NCBI GenBank assembly: GCA_029062895.1
Contig: JAIDPF010000070.1
Coordinates: 1 to 62,000 of the forward strand
Length of the DNA stretch: 62,000 nt
Origin: Lachnospiraceae bacterium
GTDB taxonomy: Bacteria > Bacillota > Clostridia > Lachnospirales > Lachnospiraceae
Direction of reading: 5' to 3'
Notes under the pieces: model-generated
Seen by the model: only the letters and a program-made list of their open reading frames with translations
What the model was told of the DNA's origin: nothing
The model's database searches: none
Part shown: positions 48,380 through 61,725 of the stretch, piece after piece
How the letters are laid out: every line of letters starts with the position of its first letter
How positions within the stretch are numbered: the first letter of the stretch is position 1
Translations under genes and position numbers: made by a program

Positions 48380-49135
48380 CTATTCCTTTTCCTCTTCACG
48401 ACGTTTGCGGATGCCGTTTAAGATGACTTCTTTTTTCTCGATGACGTCTTTCTGGCTCATGGCCGGAACATCTTTTAATTTATAATCAATGCCAAGTTTT
48501 TCATATTTAGGTTTTCCCATGGTATGATAGGGAAGGACATCCAGCGCTTTCAGATTATGGAGTCCCCCGATAAAGTAACCGAGCTTATAAAGATACTCAT
48601 CGTCATCCGTTAATCCTGATACTACCACATGACGGATCCACATGGGAACATCCCGGTCAGAAAGATACTGTGCAAATGCAAGGATACCGTCATTCGGCTG
48701 TGAAGTTAGCTCCTTATGTTTTTCAGGATCAATATGTTTGATATCCAGCATAACGAGATCCGTGATTTTCATAAGCACGTCCAGCTTTTCGATCAATGCC
48801 GTGTTATTGGGTTTAAATACGATGCCGGAAGTGTCGATACATGTATGGATATCGCGTTTTTTTGCTTCCGTAAACAATTCGATCAGAAAATCCACTTGCA
48901 GCAGCGGTTCGCCGCCGGTTACGGTCAGACCGCCATCCTTATAGAAACTGCGGTTCCGCTCATAAGCTTCCATAATTTCTGAAACTTCCACCATCCTGCC
49001 GCCGTTCATTGCCCAAGTATCCGGATTATGGCAGTATGCACACCGCATGGGGCAGCCTTGTACAAATACGACGAATCTTACGCCGGGTCCGTCAACCGTT
49101 CCAAATGATTCCAGTGAATGAATTCTTCCGCTCAT
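48380..49135 (-). CDS. pflA: Pyruvate formate-lyase activating enzyme
   Basis: Radical SAM activase that abstracts a hydrogen from the glycine of the PFL radical domain. The start MSGRIHSLESFGTVDGPGVRF and the cluster motif CPMRCAYC (CxxxCxxC) are characteristic; TGGEPLLQ and VDTSG-type blocks follow (CIDTSGIVF). 251 residues, normal. The frame runs upstream to 49330 but the family begins at 49135, with AAAGGATAAGAC upstream. It pairs with the ferredoxin gene, while its target pflB lies 7 kb away. Confidence 0.96.
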   Translation of the reverse strand: MSGRIHSLESFGTVDGPGVRFVVFVQGCPMRCAYCHNPDTWAMNGGRMVEVSEIMEAYERNRSFYKDGGLTVTGGEPLLQVDFLIELFTEAKKRDIHTCIDTSGIVFKPNNTALIEKLDVLMKITDLVMLDIKHIDPEKHKELTSQPNDGILAFAQYLSDRDVPMWIRHVVVSGLTDDDEYLYKLGYFIGGLHNLKALDVLPYHTMGKPKYEKLGIDYKLKDVPAMSQKDVIEKKEVILNGIRKRREEEKE

Positions 49136-49304: not shown

Positions 49305-49376
49305 TTGGATTTTAGCGGAGATATTATCATTGTCGATTCATGTAATGCTATGGAAAAATCAATTTTAAGGCGATAG
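49305..49376 (+). pseudogene. Short ORF fragment, possible gene remnant
   Basis: AAAGGCGG is nine bases before a TTG that opens a 23-codon frame (LDFSGDIIIVDSCNAMEKS and a few more), ending in TAG. The front resembles the start of a larger protein rather than a finished small one, and an extended -10 (TGGTATAAT) lies upstream. It could be a decayed gene cut off by the hairpin-rich DNA behind it. Confidence 0.35.
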
Positions 49377-55391: not shown

Positions 55392-55458
55392 AGGGAACGC
55401 TAAAGCGTTCCCTTTAATAAAGACCTCCATAAGCTGTGTTCTTATGGAGGTCTTTTAT
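55390..55458. terminator. Tandem terminators between the ABC operon and the pfl operon
   Basis: AAAGGGAACGC/GCGTTCCCTTT (55390-55415) and AAGACCTCCATAAG/CTTATGGAGGTCTT (55420-55454) are two perfect stems; the second has TTTT on the plus strand. They separate two convergent operons. Confidence 0.9.
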
Positions 55459-55504: not shown

Positions 55505-55750
55505 TTAGATTGCTTCATGGAATGTACGGGAGATAACATCTGCCTGCTGCTCCGGTGTTAACTTAATGAAGTTAACAGCGTATCCGGATACACGGATTGT
55601 CAGCTGGGGATAATTCTCAGGATGCTTCTGAGCATCTAAAAGAGTATCTCTATTTAATACGTTAACATTCAAATGATGACCGCCCTTTGTAGCGTATCCA
55701 TCTAATAATGATACCAGGTTGTTTACCTGTGTTGCACTTGCTTCTGCCAT
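55505..55750 (-). CDS. Stand-alone glycyl-radical domain (PFL C-terminus, GrcA-like)
   Basis: 81 residues that match the last part of conventional Pfl[42 protein letters not shown] and [11 protein letters not shown]. The radical glycine is Gly56 in RVSGYAV. AGGAGG is nine bases before the ATG, so it is a separately translated subunit. In E. coli the related YfiD/GrcA repairs oxygen-cut PFL; here the main PflB lacks this domain entirely, so this protein should be the obligatory radical carrier. Confidence 0.93.
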
Positions 55751-55773
55751 GATAATAATCCTCCTTATATAAA

Positions 55774-55989
55774 TTATTGATAATCATCTAATCCTTGGTG
55801 AAGTGTGGGAACACTGCATGCCAGTGGTGTCCTGGAACAGTCAGTGCAGCCCATAGTCTGAACATCTTTTTTAGCGTCTGCATTCTCGTCAACATCTACA
55901 TTTACATGACCGACACCTTTAGAAAACCCATTGTCTAACTGTGCAACCATATCCTGTATCAGTTCTTCTTCGCTTTTTGTTGTGCCCAT
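55774..55989 (-). CDS. Small protein with a half radical-domain and three cysteines
   Basis: 71 residues. Residues 10-33 ([20 protein letters not shown], then NVDV) align with the [17 protein letters not shown] part of the 81-residue protein, so it is a truncated paralogue. The radical-glycine half is replaced by a tail with CTDC (Cys48, Cys51) and Cys58. No RVSGY motif. GTGAGG is eight bases before the ATG. It sits between pflB and the radical-domain gene. Possible roles: occupying the radical-domain site on PflB as an inhibitor or protector, or carrying metal or a thiol; all are inference. Confidence 0.8.
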
Positions 55990-56023
55990 ACTTAGAACCT
56001 CACTTTTTAGTTTTATATAGATA

Positions 56024-56058
56024 TCTGCGCTTTGCGCTTAGACAAAGCGCAGAGTATC
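56024..56058 (-). promoter_or_regulatory. Hairpin between pflB and the small radical-domain genes
   Basis: TCTGCGCTTTG pairs perfectly with CAAAGCGCAGA around an 8-base loop, flanked by ATATC/GTATC. No T run follows, so it is more likely an RNA processing or stability element than a terminator. Confidence 0.6.
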
Positions 56059-56096
56059 AAAACCTTCAGTCAAAACTTACAGTTTAACTTATTATT

Positions 56097-58151
56097 TTAC
56101 TTCTTGCTCAGGTCGATATCGATATCACCTGCAAATACCTGATCTTCCTTACCAAGAGCGCCCGGAATGATAGAGAAGGTATTGGAGATACCATCCTGTG
56201 CATCCTTAAACGGAAGCTTGGATACAGAAGCCAGAGAAGCTACCGCACCATGAGTGTCACGACCGTGCATCGGGTTAGCGCCCGGAGCAAACGGCTGTCC
56301 CTTCTTACGTCCATCAGGTGTGTTACCTGTTGCCTTACCGTAAGTTACGTTAGAAGTGATGGTAAGGATGGAAGTTGTAGGAATACCATTTCTGTAGGTG
56401 TGATGTCTTCTGATCGCCGTCATGAACTTATGAACGATGTCCTGAGCAATCAAGTCAACGCGGTCATCATCATTACCATATTTCGGGAACTCACCGGTGG
56501 TCTCGAAGTCAACGATTACGCCGTCCTCGTCCCTGATCGGTTTAACTGTTGCATATTTGATTGCAGATAAGGAGTCAGCTACGATGGAAAGACCTGCAAC
56601 ACCTGTTGCGAAGTAACGCTTAACATCTCTGTCATGAAGTGCCATCTCAGCTCTCTCATAGCAGTATTTATCATGCATATAGTGGATGATATTTAAGGTG
56701 TTAACATATACGTCTGCCTGCCACTCCATCATATCCATGAATTTTGCATATACATCATCATAATCAAGTACGTCACCGCTTACAGGACGATATTTAGGAC
56801 CAACCTGTTTCTTGGTAACTTCATCAACACCGCCGTTCAAAGCGTACAGCAGACATTTAGCCAGGTTAGCACGAGCGCCAAAGAACTGCATTTCCTTACC
56901 AACAACCATGGAAGATACGCAACATGCAATTGCATAATCATCGCCGTGGGTTACTCTCATCAGGTCATCGTTCTCATACTGGATGGAAGAAGTCTTGATG
57001 GACATCTTAGCACAGAACTCTTTCCAAGGCTGAGGAAGTCTGGTTGACCAGAGAACCGTTAAGTTAGGCTCAGGTGAAGCGCCTAAGTTATTCAATGTGT
57101 TCAGGTAACGGAAGGAAGTCTTTGTTACAAGAGAACGTCCGTCAACGCCTACACCACCAAGGGATTCTGTAACCCATACAGGATCGCCGGCAAAAATCTG
57201 ATTGTATTCCGGTGTACGTGCAAATTTGATCAGACGAAGCTTCATAATAAAGTGATCAACAAACTCCTGAATCTCTTCCTCTGTAAACGTACCGTTCTTA
57301 AGATCTCTCTCAGCGTAGCAGTCGATAAAGGTAGAAGTACGTCCAAGTGACATAGCAGCACCGTTCTGCTCTTTAACGGAAGAAAGGTATCCGAAATATG
57401 TTGCCTGAATAGCTTCCTGTACGTTAGTAGCAGGTTTGGAAATATCGCATCCGTAAGAAGCAGCCATTTCCTTCATCATCTTTAATGCTACCATCTGCTC
57501 GGAAAGTTCCTCACGAAGACGGATCACATCATCAGTCATAACGCGTCCTGTGGAATCTTTCTGTGCCTGTTTGTCTTCGATCAGGTAATCAATACCATAC
57601 AAAGCAACTCGTCTGTAGTCGCCGATGATACGACCACGTCCATATGCATCAGGAAGACCTGTAATGATATGGGAGGAACGGCATGCTCTCATTTCTGCGT
57701 TGTATGCGTCGAAACATCCTGCATTGTGTGTTTTTCTATGTGTGGAGAAGAACTCACTGATCTCAGGATCTACGGTATAACCATTATCTGCACAAGCTTT
57801 CTCTGCCATTCTGATACCGCCGTAAGGCTGTAAAGAACGCTTAAATGGCTTGTCTGTCTGGAAACCTACGATCTTTTCCTTGCTCTTATCAAGATATCCG
57901 GGAGCATGGGATGTGATGGTAGAAACTACCTTGGTATCCATATCCAATACGCCGCCTGCTTCACGCTCCTGCTTTGCAAGATCCATAACCTGTGCCCATA
58001 AGTCTTTGGTTGCCTGTGTGGGTCCGCTTAAGAAGGAATCGTCTCCGTCGTACGGAGTGTAGTTTTTCTGGATGAAGTCGCGTACATTGACTTCAGTCTG
58101 CCATTTTCCGGCTGCAAAGCCTTCCCATTCGGGTCTCATTTCTGTGCTCAT
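56097..58151 (-). CDS. pflB: Pyruvate formate-lyase catalytic subunit, lacking the radical domain
   Basis: It converts pyruvate and CoA to acetyl-CoA and formate. The sequence follows PflB throughout: [15 protein letters not shown] with the catalytic Cys410-Cys411, [39 protein letters not shown], and the pocket around [18 protein letters not shown]. It stops after [15 protein letters not shown] plus a short Asp-rich end, where other PflB proteins continue for ~75 residues into the glycyl-radical domain. There is no frameshift; the missing domain is a separate gene downstream. AGGAGG precedes the ATG. Confidence 0.95.
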
Positions 58152-58231: not shown

Positions 58232-58261
58232 ATTATAGCGAGAAATCGGGTAGATAGTCAA
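58232..58261 (-). promoter_or_regulatory. pfl operon promoter
   Basis: On the minus strand, -35 TTGACT (58256-58261), 18 bp spacer and perfect -10 TATAAT (58232-58237); leader ~75 bases. Confidence 0.8.
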
Positions 58262-59932: not shown

Positions 59933-60121
59933 ATGGCAGCAATTACGAAAGACACTACGATTGGTCAGGCATTGATGGAGAATCCGGATATTGCACCTGT
60001 TCTTTTGGAGGCAGGGATGCATTGTCTCGGATGTCCTTCCGCACAGGGCGAGACATTGGAAGAGGCGGCAATGGTACATGGATTTGATGTGAATGATCTT
60101 CTTGCCAAGATTAATGCCTAA
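59933..60121 (+). CDS. DUF1858 domain protein
   Basis: 62 residues: [47 protein letters not shown]. This is the complete small domain that also heads ScdA/RIC-type iron-sulfur repair proteins; the CLGC pair is the likely ligand or redox site. AAGGAGG precedes the ATG. A redox or Fe-S role is inferred. Confidence 0.92.
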
Positions 60122-60216
60122 TAATAAAGTGTATTGAAAAGAAGGGCGGTAAGGATTTACGAGAAAAAGGCTGATGCGTTGCATTGGTCTTTTATTGCAA
60201 AAAGGGGGTTGGGGAT

Positions 60217-61725
60217 ATGTTAAAGAGTTGGGAGAAACCGGAAAGACCGTCAGATGAGGAGATTGAGGAACGTCTTTCCAAAGCAAGGGAAGGATTGGCG
60301 ACAAAGCAGACTGCTATGAAAGAGCAAAAGCTTCCTGTGTTGGTCGTGCTGGATGGATGGGGTACAGCAGGAAAGGGAAGCGTGCTTGGCAGGATCATCC
60401 GTAATATTGATCCAAGATTTTTTCAAGTAGAGACAATGGATCGTAAGACAGAAGATGAGAAAAGGAAACCGTTTTTATATCGGTACTTTATTCGGATTCC
60501 GGAGGCGGGAAAATATAAATTTCTTGATGGAAGCTGGATGGATGAAGCGGTTGGAGAATATATTCACGGAAGACAAAAAAAATCGGAATATAAGAAATGT
60601 GTGGAAAGTATCTGTTGTTTTGAACGCCAGCTTACGGATCAGGGATATCTTGTGTTGAAGTTTTTCTTTCATATCGGAAGAAAGGAACAGAAAAAAAGAA
60701 TTGATGAATTGCTGTCTGATAAAAATACAGGATGGCGTGTCAGCGGAGATGATCTTTGGCAAAACAAAAATTATGCAAAATATAAAGAAGTCTATGATGA
60801 ATATATGACGGCGACGAACCTGCCCGCAGCGCCCTGGCATCTGATTGACGCGAAGCATAAGAAGTGGGCGGAGTTACAGGTATTGGAAATCTTGTTAGAA
60901 GGGATCGATCATGCATTGGCAGAGAAATCAGCAGACAATGCGGACAAAGTGCATAGGGCGTCAGAAATGGACACAGATGATATGGCGGATATGAAATTGG
61001 CAAAGATATTGCCGATTCCTAAGCTGTCTGAGATCCCGTTGGATAAATCTTTATCAGAGGAAGAATATCATAAAGAGCTGGATGAATGCCAGAGAAGATT
61101 AAAAGAATTACATAACATATTATATAGAAAGAAGATACCTGTTATCATCGCATACGAAGGCTGGGATGCGGCGGGAAAAGGCGGCAATATCAAGCGTATT
61201 ACAGGTGCACTCGATCCGAGAGGATTTGAAGTACATCCGATTGCGAGTCCGGAACCCCATGAAAAAGCAAGACATTATTTGTGGCGTTTCTGGAATAGAC
61301 TGCCTAGGACGGGGCATATTGCAATCTTTGATCGGACATGGTATGGACGCGTCATGGTTGAACGGCTGGAGGGATTCTGCAGTGAGAGCGATTGGAAATC
61401 TGCGTATCGAGAAATTAATGAATTCGAAAAAGAGTTGAGTGACTGGGGTGCCATCGTGATCAAGTTTTGGGTACAGATAGATAAGGATGTACAGCTGCAG
61501 AGGTTTACCGATAGACAGAATACACCGGGAAAACAGTGGAAGATCACAGAAGAAGATTGGCGTAATAGGGAAAAGTGGGATCAGTATGAGACGGCAGTTG
61601 ATGAGATGCTGCAAAAGACCAATACCGCTTATGCGCCATGGGTGGTACTGGAGTCTAATGACAAAAAGTACGCAAGGATTAAAGCGTTAAAAACCGTGAT
61701 CGAAGCTATCAAAAAAAGAATCTAA
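60217..61725 (+). CDS. Polyphosphate:AMP phosphotransferase, tandem PPK2 domains
   Basis: 502 residues with two PPK2 kinase domains. The first has Walker A VLDGWGTAGKGSVLGRI but a changed Walker B region (FLDGSWMDEAV); the second has YEGWDAAGKGGNIKRI, lid-type EKARHYLWRFW and DRTWYGRV. This is the class II two-domain layout, which phosphorylates AMP (or related nucleotides) from polyphosphate, with the N-terminal half usually inactive. The start at 60217 follows AAAGGGGGTTGGGGAT. Confidence 0.9.
   Translation: MLKSWEKPERPSDEEIEERLSKAREGLATKQTAMKEQKLPVLVVLDGWGTAGKGSVLGRIIRNIDPRFFQVETMDRKTEDEKRKPFLYRYFIRIPEAGKYKFLDGSWMDEAVGEYIHGRQKKSEYKKCVESICCFERQLTDQGYLVLKFFFHIGRKEQKKRIDELLSDKNTGWRVSGDDLWQNKNYAKYKEVYDEYMTATNLPAAPWHLIDAKHKKWAELQVLEILLEGIDHALAEKSADNADKVHRASEMDTDDMADMKLAKILPIPKLSEIPLDKSLSEEEYHKELDECQRRLKELHNILYRKKIPVIIAYEGWDAAGKGGNIKRITGALDPRGFEVHPIASPEPHEKARHYLWRFWNRLPRTGHIAIFDRTWYGRVMVERLEGFCSESDWKSAYREINEFEKELSDWGAIVIKFWVQIDKDVQLQRFTDRQNTPGKQWKITEEDWRNREKWDQYETAVDEMLQKTNTAYAPWVVLESNDKKYARIKALKTVIEAIKKRI

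Follow-up and report, generated by a model that had tools for sequence, protein, structure and literature searches.

The question raised by the pfl locus described here is whether a pyruvate formate-lyase (PFL) can be encoded as separate catalytic and radical subunits and, if so, how the pieces are brought together. In the gut and rumen, PFL is one of the main routes by which sugar becomes formate and acetate, and descriptions of it normally show a single chain. In a 62,000-nt stretch from a Lachnospiraceae bacterium (assembly GCA_029062895.1, contig JAIDPF010000070.1, positions 1–62,000; hereafter the window), three genes lie on the minus strand in the order core, middle gene and radical subunit. 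The core (56097–58151) encodes a 684-residue catalytic subunit with an intact Cys–Cys pair and no glycyl-radical domain, the middle gene (55774–55989) encodes a 71-residue protein with two invariant cysteines in its tail and no Pfam family, and the last gene, of the grcA3 type (55505–55750), encodes an 81-residue standalone glycyl-radical subunit with Gly56 in the motif RVSGYAV. Judged from gene content, this three-gene ‘split’ PFL is the sole PFL found in the source bacterium and the form is widespread in Lachnospiraceae. The explanation that we favor, with somewhat more confidence than doubt, is a three-gene PFL in which the middle protein acts in trans as a loader or activator.

The division of the enzyme is evident from profile searches. 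The core matches the NCBIfam model TIGR01255 with 1106 bits (cut-off 994), covering positions 1–665 of 744, and PF02901 with 722 bits; the 81-residue protein covers TIGR01255 positions 663–743, matches Pfam Gly_radical with 84.5 bits and passes the NCBIfam model NF038360 (GrcA3) with 159.4 bits (cut-off 158). The two proteins thus jointly cover the profile, and the core resembles Escherichia coli PflB (TIGR01255, PDB 2pfl and 1h16) in its catalytic body, fold and Cys–Cys pair. Unlike the one-chain E. coli enzyme, however, it has its radical domain off-chain, with an extra 71-residue gene in between, and the split clade departs from E. coli PflB at diagnostic positions, among them 410 (His in the clade) and 423 (Ser; E. 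coli numbering, counting Met1). The active-site pair is retained in the core (AIACCVSS), and both columns are Cys in all 23 split and all 28 full-length rows compared; a full-length PFL considered below, L170, stands outside this count and also reads CC. The locus falls outside the class of PFLs with the radical domain in the same chain, the domain here being a separate gene.

The initial annotation had stated that PflB stops ahead of the glycyl-radical domain, that this domain is an 81-residue gene of its own and that no frameshift could rejoin the pieces. The profile coverage bears out the first two statements. As for the third, stop codons and one whole gene separate the core from the radical piece, which excludes a frameshift artefact, and the break recurs at the same place in other assemblies. 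The core chain ends 30–33 residues from the start of the DGIS motif in 80 of 80 named loci, all retrieved with the middle protein as query. Open frames of ~880 residues in some relatives were considered as an in-frame fusion of all three parts, a candidate that was rejected once the translated frames proved to be interrupted by normal stop codons between one gene and the next. Activity toward pyruvate and coenzyme A (CoA), yielding formate and acetyl-CoA, would be expected from homology and from the encoded PflA. The latter is a radical S-adenosylmethionine (SAM) PFL-activating enzyme (48380–49135, minus strand; TIGR02493 294.5 bits, cut-off 231.75, with a Radical_SAM match) located ~6.4 kb downstream of the radical-subunit gene in the window; its open reading frame (ORF) opens at 49330 and the ATG at 49135 is the likely start.

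Is another PFL available in this organism? The source genome (G000; 3.07 Mb in 115 contigs) contains one PFL-like body. Three Gly_radical matches are present, corresponding to the 81-residue gene, the core end and a second standalone gene of 79 residues, and none of the three is a full-length PFL (about 2% of the genome is missing). The initial annotation had allowed that a second full-length pflB might be the real enzyme; none is present in the assembled genome, which is 97.9% complete. Its central proposal of a true catalytic/radical split therefore stands, with no full-length PFL in the genome and an arrangement that is conserved across many genomes. Its picture of a two-subunit enzyme is correct as to the split and incomplete as to the parts, since a third, co-conserved protein is encoded between the two and its presence tracks the split.

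In its N-terminal half the middle protein looks like the strand by which the radical domain docks (LVxxLDxxFxxGxGHxNVxV). A profile of 16 middle proteins aligns with a profile of 15 radical subunits over 34 N-terminal columns (hhalign 92.8%, E 4e-7) and also matches full-length PFL frames at middle residues ~5–37; in a phylum-wide search, nearly all such PFL matches lie in frames of 741–790 residues. Together, these matches point to an N-half, including a G-x-G-H-x-N-V strand, that is common to the middle protein and the radical domain. The radical loop is replaced in the middle protein by a D-C-x5-6-C-x-V-P-T tail and the radical glycine motif SGYA is absent; the tail reads D-C-x6-C-x-V-P-T-L in the window, with x5 in some relatives. 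The middle protein is held by 116 of the 118 loci examined, a set in which some genomes are counted twice, and these represent 87 distinct proteins. Cys51, Cys58, Asp19, Pro61 and Thr62 are found in all 87 and Gly27, His28, Asn30, Ala57, Leu63 and Gly66 in 86; the Cys that opens the CTDC motif is present in 74 and hence not invariant. Codon-position differences of 0.254/0.149/0.578 among 56 closer sequences are those of a protein gene under purifying selection.

Known families offer no home for the middle protein. A Pfam search with the window protein returned no family at E 10, the small-subunit family of the benzylsuccinate synthase (BSS) type included, and only two of its cysteines are invariant. 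The GrcA3 model scores at most 20 bits against middle proteins, in two distant members. The Cys region fails the model TIGR04118 for a radical-SAM-modified, Cys-rich ribosomally synthesized and post-translationally modified peptide (RiPP), with 13.2 bits against a cut-off of 35 (E 0.066). A search of the PDB gave one chain, Syn-F4-Link, at E 0.04, which we took as chance, and no match for the distant middle protein of locus L133. Separately, a small protein encoded away from pfl in the source genome (G000:C65:34755–34931, minus strand; L123 3726–4073) has a weak match to the middle profile (E 1.3e-4). It carries the motif YHHGRCDIGSPWACGTPFDVLD (C-x5-A-C type), is also found in L154, L156, L157 and L158, and has no notable Pfam match and no NCBIfam match.

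The distribution of the middle gene follows that of the split. It was found in all 19 split loci first retrieved (L023–L041, 17 from the same genus and two from other families). In a first set of 60 relatives, where 16 of the 27 split genomes had supplied rows to the search profile, the gene is present in all 27 genomes with a visible split core, including G013 and G018 with two cores and two middle genes each, and in 0 of 14 full-length-only genomes, apart from N-half matches inside PFL itself; 18 relatives had no PFL1-type match over the cut-off. No full-length pyr_form_ly_1 match above the cut-off was found in any of the 27 split relatives. Genome G001 had been a candidate for a split genome lacking the middle gene and was dropped: a contig edge truncates its core, and its radical-domain gene is on another contig where the 3 kb covered contains neither a core end nor a middle gene, so that this genome is uninformative either way. 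A second set of 32 genomes came from an order-wide search and contributed nothing to the profile (G001 and G304 uninformative). Here the middle gene is present in 14 of 16 split genomes, being absent from G555 and G571, and in 0 of 14 full-length genomes; G500 was confirmed as split. Combining both sets, the middle gene accompanies 41 of 43 split genomes and none of the 27 distinct full-length ones, with G042 belonging to both sets. Among 398 genomes across the phylum, complete middle matches were confined to G000 and G280, with a weak partial match in G249 (E 9e-4). Full-length PFLs without the middle gene occur in relatives of the same genus and order.

A named collection with one genome per species, searched with the middle protein, gave 454 confirmed stretches, of which the best 80 were analysed. 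These are titled Lachnospiraceae, with individual genera that we take to be members of that family, or with broader names such as ‘bacterium’. All 80 have a truncated core and 79 have a radical subunit if L109, with its variant motif RLSGYAV, is included; in the sole locus without one, L058, the contig stops 256 bases after the middle frame. In 47 of the 80 loci a PflA-like frame lies further downstream in the same orientation, and in 41 of these 47 it is within 1 kb.

We constructed a tree of PFL cores from 119 sequences (91 split, 28 full-length), reduced to 51 rows by removing any split row with 92% or higher identity to one that was retained, so that 23 split rows remained. The split cores form one clade that encloses a single full-length PFL, L170 of genome G553, so that two changes are needed; grouping the split rows without L170 is rejected (approximately unbiased test, p 0.0013). 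L170 has five of the eight split-diagnostic residues and is adjoined by PflA, and the middle gene gave no match in G553. The simplest history is apparently one split followed by one re-fusion, as read from this tree. The nearest row to L170 is L144 of G555, which is split and lacks the middle gene. In G555 and G571 (L144 and L145, one genus) the radical-subunit gene comes immediately after the split core, and the cores end in an added Cys-rich tail, DDCLCCEP.

Biochemical work on E. coli provides the context in which we interpret these three parts. In a study of a hand-cut enzyme (PMC8683613), tPFL (residues 1–695) combined with YfiD yielded 32-fold less radical than cleaved PFL, with no binding detected by isothermal titration calorimetry. 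When tPFL was paired instead with YfiD lacking its first 60 residues (truncYfiD), the radical yield was 2.7 versus 17.2 µM and, once activated, the pair was catalytically normal, with an apparent kcat of 204 per second compared with 105 for PFL. The same source proposes that PFL residues 696–733 serve as an element for recognition. Nature's own split lies near this artificial cut, and a protein has been added there: the final diagnostic position that aligns in the split core corresponds to E. coli 681 (no Met; numbering from L256, glycine at 734), followed by ~11 more residues. Residues 21–81 of the 81-residue subunit align with YfiD 67–127, and nothing earlier in YfiD aligns. Like YfiD/GrcA (TIGR04365, PDB 6owr), the subunit is a standalone radical domain with RVSGYAV that would work on a core in trans. 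It differs in having no ~60-residue disordered N-terminal extension and in having no full-length PFL found here to repair, the radical domains found being standalone only; and, unlike YfiD's partner, the core ends naturally before the docking strand. It is this combination of a natural core end and a short radical subunit, close to the geometry of the E. coli cut, with the addition of a separate protein whose N-half corresponds to the missing strand, that suggests a loader or activator.

On this basis the split enzyme might function as follows. PflA would install the radical on Gly56 of the 81-residue subunit while the latter is seated on the core, the subunit providing the last strand of the barrel and the radical loop and transferring the radical to the Cys pair of the core, which would then turn pyruvate and CoA into formate and acetyl-CoA. 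These steps are those expected from homology. The radical subunit would be exchangeable, an additional copy often being encoded elsewhere. With moderate confidence, we infer that the middle protein is related to the radical domain in a derived form that has no glycine, and that it docks through the same strand. What E. coli residues 696–733 provide for efficient YfiD binding and activation may be supplied in trans by the middle protein, whose conserved Cys tail may work in or beside the opened active site, both again held with moderate confidence. Docking of the middle protein on the core is likewise a prediction from sequence comparison.

Several observations weigh against a loading role. The two-piece E. 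coli mimic was activated to some extent without a third protein (PMC8683613). The arrangement in G555 and G571 suggests that the middle gene is not universally needed, unless the DDCLCCEP tail stands in for it. Eighteen loci from a viral collection that carry short radical domains, described below, show no middle gene within the available flanks. Structure prediction has also been unhelpful. An AlphaFold2 (AF2) model of the core and middle protein of the closely related locus L046 leaves the middle protein undocked, as one helix with a predicted local distance difference test (pLDDT) score of ~72 and a disordered tail (~25–40). The core itself is modeled with a mean pLDDT of 76 and a predicted template-modeling (TM) score of 0.82, and its best Foldseek match is E. 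coli PFL 2pfl (TM 0.80, 59% identity). The alignment for this run had 42 rows, and with just 14 of them covering the middle protein the undocked model amounts to a lack of support rather than a disproof. An AlphaFold model of all three parts joined into a single chain was unusable (mean pLDDT 45).

These points bear on what else the middle protein might do. The main rival to a loader is a guard or decoy that fills the radical subunit's slot when the enzyme is off, during oxygen exposure or repair, its two cysteines capping, reducing or reversibly disulfide-bonding the core's Cys pair so that the resting enzyme is protected. We consider this unlikely, although it is the alternative that we take most seriously. 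It accounts for a docking-strand motif that is the same as that of the radical domain joined, in 87 of 87 proteins, to a two-Cys tail in place of the loop; it also fits the Cys-rich tail on the core itself in the genus without the middle gene and the failure to find that gene in the genome of the re-fused PFL. The undocked AF2 model tells against a guard as well, and relatives of the same genus and order run full-length PFLs without one. The shared docking strand and the side-by-side genes could also be read as a hard-wired asymmetric dimer, in which the radical subunit occupies one core and the middle protein permanently occupies the other, fixing half-site reactivity. For E. coli PFL, half-site radical content has been described under in vitro conditions (PMC12338860) and would fit such a dimer, but two genomes lack the middle gene and we regard the idea as improbable.

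Slightly more doubtful still is that the middle gene is an operon bystander with an unrelated job, for example encoding a radical-SAM-modified peptide or a small regulator. The weak match of its Cys region to the RiPP model (13 bits against 35, E 0.066) and the disordered tail in the AF2 model would suit such a role. Against this, the gene tracks the split and is not found with whole PFLs, and over its N-half the protein shares ancestry with the radical domain of PFL, even if it scores below every family cut-off. The remaining alternative concerns the 81-residue protein, which would be an ordinary GrcA-like spare part for another, full-length PFL that is the real enzyme. The NCBI family name, ‘autonomous glycyl radical cofactor GrcA3’, invites this reading. 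It fails already, however, unless a full-length pflB sits in the unassembled ~2% of the genome: no second PFL body or full-length radical-domain enzyme was found there, and 0 of 27 split relatives have a full-length pyr_form_ly_1 match over the cut-off. We therefore give it very little credence, and a loader or activator working in trans remains our preferred explanation for the middle protein.

A broader proposal, to which we lean somewhat less than to its converse, is that the split PFL represents a third architecture of glycyl-radical enzyme. It would combine a diffusible, shared radical subunit, encoded in the operon, often at a second locus and in phage genes, with a two-Cys partner derived from the same domain that loads or guards the open core; it would have arisen once and spread in a dominant gut family, the partner being missing in the one lineage seen to have re-fused the enzyme. 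A parallel for the partner may be BSS beta and gamma, which are also small, Cys-containing proteins that regulate a glycyl-radical enzyme. Those subunits bind [4Fe-4S] clusters in a fold like that of high-potential iron–sulfur proteins, whereas the middle protein has two invariant cysteines and no family match. For the radical piece, GrcA3 (NF038360) is the relevant family, with both the 81- and 79-residue proteins exceeding its cut-off. That model covers the radical piece alone, its name implies a cofactor for another enzyme and the middle protein lies outside it.

The closest solved relatives of the core are two PDB chains entitled ‘Formate acetyltransferase’, 38la_A and 38lb_A (1109 and 1138 bits; 2026 sequence copy). 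Neither was matched by the radical-domain profile at E 0.001, which suggests that cores of the split kind have probably already been solved by some group. Read from the alignment, 38lb carries a His and a Ser of the split type close to its Cys pair; 38la stops where the matched core stops and 38lb runs ~40 residues further. We also note that 38lb reads GECDMCEM near the place of the DDCLCCEP tail. The PDB sequence search turned up no middle or radical chain of either entry. A search of the open-access literature in PubMed Central found no paper describing a split PFL, the middle gene or GrcA3, and a text search of PMC11528403 gave nothing on split enzymes.

Many gut and rumen bacteria, with numerous genomes of a major gut family among them, appear to build PFL from three genes, and annotation is affected directly, the radical piece currently being filed as a spare part and the middle gene as nothing. 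For expression of split enzymes, the core by itself should be dead. The system also bears on the question of how glycyl-radical enzymes release their radical domain and take it back, and the separate genes suggest built-in swapping or loading of the oxygen-sensitive part.

The second standalone radical gene of the source genome is relevant to such swapping. It encodes 79 residues (G000:C109:32989–33228, minus strand; L001 1441–1680; L126 12990–13229) and passes NF038360 with 163.6 bits. Over their final 60 residues the two standalone proteins do not differ, whereas the underlying DNA is 82% identical, which points to an ancient duplication held under strong constraint and not to a recent copy. 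The gene adjoins a NUDIX gene in the source genome and three relatives (L128, L129 and L131), and in two others (L127 and L130) the second radical gene adjoins a Crp-type regulator; one NUDIX protein and both Crp-type regulators were checked against Pfam. An extra radical-domain gene on another contig is found in 17 of the 27 split relatives, some of whose assemblies are fragmented. These genes are consistent with an exchangeable radical part, and to that extent favor the suggestion in the initial annotation that the subunit is exchangeable by design. The suggestion needs care, given the poor activation of the E. coli two-piece pair (PMC8683613). The initial annotation also proposes that oxygen damage would cost the small part rather than the whole enzyme and that activity could be set by subunit ratio. 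Genome G539 presents a further arrangement at L173 (contig C97), where a second set of middle gene, radical subunit and PflA, diverged from the copy on C2, lies at a contig end; no second core appears among the matches listed for this genome.

Radical domains of the short type (~80 residues) also occur in 18 loci of the viral collection (L178–L195), where they are 64–78% identical to that of the window and 12 of the 18 lie on contigs >60 kb. They, too, are consistent with an exchangeable radical part. Matches of the middle profile in viral-collection loci are restricted to the N-half and fall inside the radical domains themselves. The T4-like radical domains of other loci in the collection (L199 onward) sit in longer frames. 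A search of viral contigs with the window core gave no match; an alignment-based core search of viral contigs gave 22 loci, and the 21 with a readable C-terminus are all full-length PFLs. PFL genes at L258–L271 and L275–L277 lie on viral-classed contigs, seven of them >90 kb, and all those with a readable C-terminus are full-length.

A promoter-like site, TTGACT-18-TATAAT (58232–58261, minus strand), lies upstream of the core gene and matches 11 of 12 consensus positions, though the region as a whole has four such sites against a shuffle mean of 6.8, i.e. no excess. The 107-nt core–middle spacer (fold −27.8 kcal/mol, z −2.8) contains a strong hairpin without a T run (56020–56058) that could give the core and the small subunits different mRNA levels; it is also possible that it serves as an mRNA-processing or stabilising element. 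The hairpin is not general, the core–middle gap being just 36 bp in the near relative L025. AAGGAGG precedes the 81-residue ORF, and 3′ of that gene a terminator-like hairpin with a 15-pair stem (55419–55455) was returned by the scan on the plus strand only; the minus-strand stretch at this position folds with −41.2 kcal/mol (z −8.5). Past a MATE-like gene upstream of pfl, the other strand of the window encodes a DUF1858 protein (59933–60121) followed by a two-domain PPK2 polyphosphate kinase (60184–61725).

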